Shown here: one piece after another, positions 46,465 to 47,830 of the stretch
How the letters are laid out: each line of letters begins with the position of its first letter
Numbering within the stretch: position 1 is the stretch's first letter
Origin: Flavobacteriaceae bacterium
Lineage (GTDB): Bacteria; Bacteroidota; Bacteroidia; Flavobacteriales; Flavobacteriaceae
Assembly (NCBI GenBank): GCA_024644725.1
Contig: JAHEHE010000010.1
Span: 1 to 49,623 of the forward strand
Direction: 5' to 3'
Length of the DNA: 49,623 nt
The notes under the pieces: model-generated
What the model saw: only the letters and a program-made list of their open reading frames with translations
Databases searched by the model: none
Told to the model about the DNA's origin: nothing
Translations under genes and position numbers: made by a program

Positions 46465-46499
46465 GTTTACTATTCGTTCAAAAAATGAGAAATGAGTGA

Positions 46500-46689: not shown

Positions 46690-46697
46690 TACATTTG
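46690..46697 (+). promoter_or_regulatory. -7 box for the Cys-rich small protein
   Basis: TACATTTG is a perfect match 43 bases before the ATG at 46741. Confidence 0.55.
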
Positions 46698-46740
46698 AAT
46701 ATTATTTAGAATTAGTTTAAATAAAAATAGTGATTGCGCA

Positions 46741-46881
46741 ATGAGTCAGGCTTCCCACTACTACGTTTTTGACTACAACATGATTGATTTCAATGGGTGT
46801 TCAAGGAAGTCGAAATGTTGCAAGCGCTACAAGAAAAAAGGAAAGAGCAATTGTTCAGACTGCCCCAAATTGCAATTCTGA
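46741..46881 (+). CDS. Small basic Cys-rich protein (46 aa)
   Basis: 46 residues opened by ATG after a TAnnTTTG box. The N-terminal half is aromatic (SHYYVFDYNMIDF); the rest is strongly basic with five Cys at 20, 26, 27, 38 and 41 (KCCKRYKKKGKS, then CSDCP). The C-x2-C near the end and the CC pair suggest metal binding, or a structural Cys cluster near nucleic acid or membrane. I recall short CCxKYKKKGK-type proteins in Bacteroidota without known function. It stands alone between sucA (divergent) and the secreted-protein gene. Confidence 0.65.
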   Translation: MSQASHYYVFDYNMIDFNGCSRKSKCCKRYKKKGKSNCSDCPKLQF

Positions 46882-47059: not shown

Positions 47060-47830
47060 ATGAAACAACTATTTACACTTTTGCTAATCGTGGTTATCTC
47101 GATAGGCAGCACCAATGAACTCCTGGCACAGGACGATTCTTTCACCCCGATGTGGGAGAGCTTTTACATTACTCCCGACAATACCAAATTAAAAGAACTT
47201 GGGGAAGCAATGGCCAAGCACAATAAAAAATATCACAGCGAAGAAGGCCCGCACCGGGCAGTGGTGTACAACGTGGTATCCGGACCCAACATGGGCAAGA
47301 TGGTATGGCAGATGGGACCACTTAAGTTTGCTCATCTCGATTCAAGACCCAAAGGAGGAGGACATGACGAAGACTGGAGAGACAATGTCATGCCTTATGT
47401 CAAGAAACTGAGTCATGGTGAATACTGGGAGCAGGATATGGAACTGTCGAACACCGATATGATGGATGGAAATGTTGGCAGCACCCCGATCCTTCACATT
47501 CGCTTTCACGAAGTTGCGAAAGGCCACGGATACAGTGTCGATCACTTGCTGGACCAAATCAGCTCGACTATCAAAGCCATGGACGGCGACAACCCCTGGG
47601 GCGTTTACGACAATCAATTCCGTCAGGGATATCGAATTGGCAGACACCTGGCAACTGTGAGCTTTCTGAAAAACTATGCAGAATACGACGAGCCGAATAC
47701 CTTCAAAGACACCTTCATCAAAGTTCATGGAGAAGATGCCTGGCAGCCCTTTATCCGGGGTATGGCAGATTCCATGTCGAACAGCTGGGATGAGGTCTGG
47801 GAATACAATGCAGCTCTAAGCGGAAACTAA
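47060..47830 (+). CDS. Secreted protein of unknown function (256 aa)
   Basis: Signal peptide MKQLFTLLLIVVISIGSTNELLAQ, here given as LFTLLLIVVISIGS with cleavage after LLAQ (about residue 24). The mature part appears to be two similar alpha/beta halves: FTPMWESFYITPDNTKLKEL and ILHIRFHEVAKGHGYSVDHL begin them, each followed by a helix, then a strand. This resembles tandem dimeric-barrel (antibiotic-monooxygenase/NIPSNAP-like) folds, by inference. It has no Cys. The C-terminus is WEYNAALSGN. It is monocistronic, with a folded-looking leader and a strong bidirectional terminator. Confidence 0.75.
   Translation: MKQLFTLLLIVVISIGSTNELLAQDDSFTPMWESFYITPDNTKLKELGEAMAKHNKKYHSEEGPHRAVVYNVVSGPNMGKMVWQMGPLKFAHLDSRPKGGGHDEDWRDNVMPYVKKLSHGEYWEQDMELSNTDMMDGNVGSTPILHIRFHEVAKGHGYSVDHLLDQISSTIKAMDGDNPWGVYDNQFRQGYRIGRHLATVSFLKNYAEYDEPNTFKDTFIKVHGEDAWQPFIRGMADSMSNSWDEVWEYNAALSGN

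Follow-up and report, generated by a model that had tools for sequence, protein, structure and literature searches.

What does a 46-residue, cysteine-rich basic protein do in a member of the Flavobacteriaceae, and is its reading frame a gene at all? The frame lies on the forward strand at 46741..46881 of the window, by which we mean the whole 49,623-nucleotide stretch of DNA analysed here (contig C117 of a 2.83-Mb draft genome, G000). It encodes MSQASHYYVFDYNMIDFNGCSRKSKCCKRYKKKGKSNCSDCPKLQF (translation of the open reading frame) and ends in a TGA stop. The initial annotation, made from the sequence alone, had described a 46-residue protein with five cysteines in 22 residues and had taken it for a metal- or nucleic-acid-binding module. 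Coordinates, length and cysteine count (residues 20, 26, 27, 38 and 41) all proved correct.

Coding evidence

The small gene is flanked by the divergent sucA gene and a secreted-protein gene, which most plausibly start at the ATG ending at 46465 and at 47060, respectively. The gap between them measures 594 nt, one fewer than first given. The frame had been called the sole gene there, and no support was found for the other short frames of the gap, which were taken from a mechanical ORF list rather than from an ORF-by-ORF search.

Selection was examined in six orthologues (the window's own, L026, L105, L137, L140 and L145); sucA itself was seen at five of these six loci, with L137 showing the other flank, and the SucA of Lutimonas saemankumensis (L140), the closest relative with a name among those seen, is 86% identical to that of the window over the 590 residues compared. 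Over the 20 codons that precede the CC pair, which no search pattern fixes (the core codons are largely fixed by the pattern), pS was 0.66–1.42 and pN 0.06–0.43, both being crude proportions with silent sites saturated. The variable N-terminal part of the protein (46741..46803, +) contains a VFDY motif common to the six sucA-clade orthologues. It also includes C20, which is absent from the orthologues' shared set; we therefore rejected this fifth cysteine as a conserved one, and the conserved set across the family numbers four. The frame is very short and has no curated domain match, as might be expected of a chance ORF. However, the excess of pS over pN already contradicts that reading, and a wide family with one core and a conserved promoter and upstream box (see below) also speak against it, so that we consider it practically untenable. 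The 46-residue ORF is a real gene under purifying selection, and its coding nature is well supported. Within it, on the minus strand (window:46866-46844), a terminator-like stem followed by a T run is directed at sucA; it is a consensus match only.

A family of short proteins in Bacteroidota

The small protein is a member of a family of short Bacteroidota proteins. Its core, CC-x10-C-x2-C-P, occupies residues 26–42 (46816..46866, +). As a DNA pattern, CC-x10-C-x2-CP had matches, many of them due to chance, in 41 of 60 genomes from the taxonomic family of the window organism; after translation, 29 of the 60 proved to contain a short ORF that combines CC-x2-[YF] with a Lys/Arg-rich core, and the x10 form was without a match in 31. 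Sixteen pattern matches were translated separately; one of them, a second match in the already counted genome G223, has CC-x2-[YF] but lacks the Lys-rich core. Two sequence groups can be told apart. Group A sequences begin MGKKK and contain CPCFDLIKKVA, and group B, which includes the window protein, carries CCKKYKKKGK-x2-C-x2-CP.

Most loci in our larger sets were chosen by their cysteine pattern, for which both the family-level search and the wider pattern search (at least 80 loci kept, at least 110 stretches) select; the set of 120 loci holds 119 distinct ones, L032 and L149 being identical. A profile search with no fixed cysteine pattern matched 40 of 395 genomes of the phylum at E 0.01. 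CC-x8 to x10-C-x2-C was kept in 29 of the 30 loci from this search over which conservation was counted (the 11 weaker matches being left out), and the spacing was x10 in all 23 loci with E < 1e-6, the window included. A core-only profile found matches in 36 of the 395 genomes. Spacings of x8 or x9 occur in seven relatives examined, five outside the taxonomic family and two inside it (L069 and L070). Among the matches listed, named loci place members in Sphingobacteriales, Chitinophagales, Cytophagales and Saprospiraceae, where the x10 spacing follows from the construction of the search pattern. The check on homologues and cysteine conservation proposed in the initial annotation has thus been run: homologues are present, four cysteines are kept, and the reading as a module is not refuted.

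No Pfam or NCBIfam family scored over its cut-off for the window protein or the members tested. A single-sequence search of 196 genomes of the order gave only two weak matches besides the window, one of which (L002) has no small cysteine-rich ORF listed; of 592 stretches put to a related-locus search, none was confirmed at E 1e-3, and tblastn against plasmids gave no match. A profile search of the PDB returned one chance-level match, to a lectin domain (E 0.27). The AlphaFold2 model of the window protein is weak (pLDDT 62, pTM 0.34), and Foldseek found nothing with it. Among the open-licence papers that literature searches listed, none names the family in its title or at the start of its abstract.

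Some members deviate from the common form. Aquimarina loci (L081, L085, L088, L103 and others) have extra cysteines in the N-terminal half, in a pattern near SPC..MNCE.ACGG, besides the core four, so that a second metal site may exist in some of these proteins. The forms at L074, L147 and L150, of Saprospiraceae type or related to it, are very short and show a doubled CC (CCKKKCCKKYKKKGK) and more C-terminal cysteines.

Linkage to ferritin genes

In the window and its close relatives the small gene adjoins sucA instead of ferritin. Synteny with sucA, which the initial annotation had suggested looking for, does exist, but it is confined to a small clade, for which reason we rejected it as a clue to function; ferritin is the commoner neighbour. 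In an even sample of the taxonomic family, 19 of 29 genomes have a ferritin gene immediately upstream and in the same orientation, and the small gene is not next to ferritin in the other 10. In the larger sets the same arrangement is found at 30 of 36 loci in group A and at 53 of 84 in group B, where 77 loci have at least 450 nt of upstream sequence. Calling of ferritins relied on an HMM derived from four ferritin sequences at these loci. Ferritin-linked homologues occur, for instance, in Aquimarina muelleri (L095) and Psychroserpens luteolus (L096). Each of eight genomes searched has just one to three PF00210 genes, so this linkage is far above chance. Three ferritins that were scanned fitted the non-heme model best, with scores below its cut-off, and the closest solved relatives of the window organism's ferritin are ferritins. 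Its gene is not linked to the small gene: it lies on contig C30, with neighbours that by eye look dapA-like and bamD-like. In Portibacter lacus (L150:4973-5667) the small gene lies beside ferritin on the opposite strand, and the linkage thus survives inversion.

Promoter and Fur-type box

The Bacteroidetes -7 promoter consensus is TAnnTTTG. The box TACATTTG at 46690..46697 (+) fits it perfectly, as originally noted. Among relatives, TAnnTTTG occurs in 76 of 83 intergenic regions between ferritin and the small gene, and TTTAGA[AT]T in 74 of the 83. A terminator-like hairpin, called by a simple ad hoc rule, is present in 46 of these regions (42 of the 53 from group B and 4 of the 30 from group A). 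An independent transcript is therefore clearer in group B, and read-through from ferritin is possible in group A.

Between this promoter box and the gene, 18 nt before the ATG, lies the Fur-type box ATTTAGAATTAGTTTAAAT (46704..46722, +). Of its 19 bases, 17 are those of the Fur box ATTTAGAATTATTCTAAAT of Riemerella anatipestifer, a consensus that is itself a prediction (PMC5609570). The same source describes gel shifts on four Riemerella promoters, among them that of sprT, for which a poor match is given. We had first read the palindrome as a DtxR/IdeR box because DtxR-type proteins are present, a reading that was replaced by the Fur-type one on the basis of that consensus. The genome encodes a Fur homologue (G000:C23:16118-16474; PF01475, E 4.8e-28) as well as three DtxR-type matches, and DtxR might yet control the palindrome.

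Scored against TTTAGA-N5-TCTAAA, 100 of the 120 loci (119 distinct) reach at least 10 of 12, as against 8.3% of first-order Markov resamples of the upstream regions (20 per locus); the window site has 11 of 12 in the scored arms. Where ferritin is linked, a score of 10 is reached by 73 of 82 regions before the small gene, compared with 16 of 82 ferritin promoters, and 26 of 37 loci without ferritin also reach 10 of 12. The sucA-linked relatives have the same box site, and TCTAAA and then TAnnTTTG are kept in seven relatives that are distant or variant and have different genes beside them (read by eye). Thus, promoter and Fur-type box persist when the neighbours change, and the box at the window promoter is well supported as a predicted site.

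A draft iron regulon

With one mismatch allowed, the genome contains eight box sites, against two for a reversed control; the excess is smaller in two less related genomes (11 versus 8 and 16 versus 12). The seven sites outside the window (C98:534 (L226), C98:6828 (L230), C18:30973 (L199), C112:12226 and 12296 (L201), C119:13502 (L232) and C68:5482 (L223)) lie before a PF01521 Fe–S gene that is followed by sufB; before a class-V aminotransferase gene, interpreted as sufS; in the gap that separates sufE from a PF01883 gene; between a TonB receptor gene and a methyltransferase-like gene (two sites); between genes for a ferredoxin and a POR-type oxidoreductase (with Pfam applied to the copy in the same genus); and between an unnamed gene and one for cytochrome c. 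A genome of the same genus (G219) has like sites for seven of the eight, with neighbours compared at four; at the TonB position the downstream gene differs. The sites at suf, TonB receptor, ferredoxin/oxidoreductase and cytochrome c genes may be taken as a draft iron regulon for the genus, made of predicted sites. The genes reported up in iron restriction in Riemerella include suf genes and that of ferritin (PMC5609570), and opposite regulation of an iron store and its opener is therefore not a given. A perfect TTTAGATTCATTCTAAA palindrome occurs in two other genera (L219 and L221; G252:C1:231897 and G243:C6:34003), between a hemA-like gene (read by eye) and a divergent gene.

The cysteine core resembles the FhuF cluster site

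FhuF has the motif C-C-x10-C-x2-C, which holds a 2Fe-2S cluster with a potential near -310 mV, and it is Fur-derepressed in low iron (PMC8068687). The C terminus of Escherichia coli K-12 FhuF, RRTCCQRYRLPDVQQCGDCTLK, can be set against KSKCCKRYKKKGKSNCSDCP of the window protein. By blastp 8 of 24 residues are identical (E 3e-5 for the single comparison), and a profile comparison gave P 0.0011 with a probability of 21%. The curated model TIGR03950 hits the window protein with E 0.0027 (17.6 bits; cut-off 137.9) and 14 of 15 family members at E up to 1, and TIGR03951 gives 11.6 bits (cut-off 63.85); the Pfam FhuF models have no match in the window protein or the members tested. The likeness spans about 21 residues, and a short cysteine motif can converge; it is thus a modest lead on the type of cofactor and no proof of descent. 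From it we infer a putative [2Fe-2S] cluster of the FhuF type at the core.

The metal half of the module first proposed is the stronger one, given the four conserved cysteines in FhuF [2Fe-2S] spacing and the Fur-type box; for the nucleic-acid half, nothing was found beyond positive charge. That charge is strong, four cysteines can also hold zinc, and the wider family has spacings between x8 and x10, all of which would suit a Fur-controlled, zinc-bound basic regulator with RNA, DNA or another protein as its binding target, for example to spare iron. However, a zinc ribbon has two C-x2-C knuckles, whereas the first pair here is an adjacent CC (also found in 25 diverse aligned rows, most of them selected for CC), and the steady link to ferritin genes in relatives argues against a regulator, which we judge improbable.

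The FhuF spacing, together with a TonB receptor gene under the same box in the genome, could instead point to a stand-alone FhuF-like ferric-siderophore reductase tail acting on imported siderophore iron. Against this, nothing of the 262-residue FhuF fold is present beyond the tail, the gene usually adjoins ferritin, and no siderophore genes were seen beside the inspected loci; we regard this as very improbable.

A candidate partner for non-heme ferritin

We tentatively favour a stand-alone mini iron–sulfur protein, controlled by Fur and carrying a FhuF-type motif, that does Bfd-like work on heme-free ferritin during starvation. As Fe2+ falls, Fur would leave the promoter box and the peptide would be made; its four conserved cysteines (CC-x10-C-x2-C) would hold the cluster, and its Lys-rich body would dock on non-heme ferritin. 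Electrons could then pass from the cluster to the ferric core, and the Fe2+ released would serve Suf among others, suf genes having the same type of box. We infer the cluster type, the docking, the electron transfer and the direction in which the small gene is regulated. The likening to Bfd is suggested by a tiny iron–sulfur protein encoded beside the store it would open, and ferric reduction by a motif shared with FhuF, whose job it is. Core potentials of -190 and -420 mV are given for horse spleen ferritin and a bacterioferritin (PMC4771812), and the FhuF potential falls between these values.

Ferritin linkage and a box common to suf genes would equally suit an iron or cluster chaperone, which takes Fe2+ or a nascent cluster as ferritin empties and, under starvation, delivers it to Suf; PMC4771812 remarks that iron chaperones had not been reported from prokaryotes. 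By contrast, the cysteine spacing is that of the redox cluster site of FhuF, and no likeness to a known iron chaperone emerged in Pfam or NCBIfam. A chaperone is therefore unlikely in our view.

The favoured reading, a reductant for heme-free ferritin, admits a wider claim, which we hold with more doubt: that a second Bfd-like system has evolved independently in Bacteroidota, in which a FhuF-tail-type [2Fe-2S] protein released from Fur mobilizes ferritin iron by reduction. Iron release is described as less well understood than uptake (PMC4771812) and, for ferritins other than bacterioferritins, as generally poorly understood (PMC12363616). A small protein with a Fur-type box, whose gene often comes next after that of a non-heme ferritin, offers a concrete candidate for such a partner and can be tested in Flavobacteriaceae. 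If the proposal is true, a ferritin class with a poorly understood release route would gain a partner protein, and the FhuF-type cluster motif would be able to stand alone in about 50 residues.

Comparison with FhuF and Bfd

The small protein as a whole belongs to neither the FhuF nor the Bfd family. With FhuF (PDB 7qp5; TIGR03951, TIGR03950) it shares the C-terminal CC-x10-C-x2-C spacing, CC-x-R-Y and an aspartate before the last cysteine. However, FhuF has 262 residues with a substrate domain, whereas the window protein is a tail-like module only, not a full-length domain, and scores below both curated NCBIfam cut-offs. Its wider relatives also differ in having x8 or x9 spacing, and its gene adjoins ferritin in many of them.

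Bfd (PF04324) uses a 2Fe-2S cluster to supply bacterioferritin with electrons (PMC4771812). It is, like the small protein, a tiny cysteine-rich protein encoded beside a ferritin-type gene. The two are unrelated in sequence: a profile comparison gave P 0.17, and PF04324 (Fer2_BFD) has no match in the window protein up to E 10 and none in 15 members up to E 1. PF04324 is absent from five of six genomes searched, and its two matches in the sixth lie in open frames of 1179 and 848 residues. The cysteine arrangements differ as well, C-x-C ... C-x2-C in Bfd (C4, C6, C39 and C42 in E. coli) versus CC-x10-C-x2-C here. Finally, E. coli bfd adjoins and precedes bfr, whereas the small gene follows the ferritin gene, and the partner of Bfd is bacterioferritin, whereas the neighbour of the small gene, where linked, encodes a heme-free ferritin.
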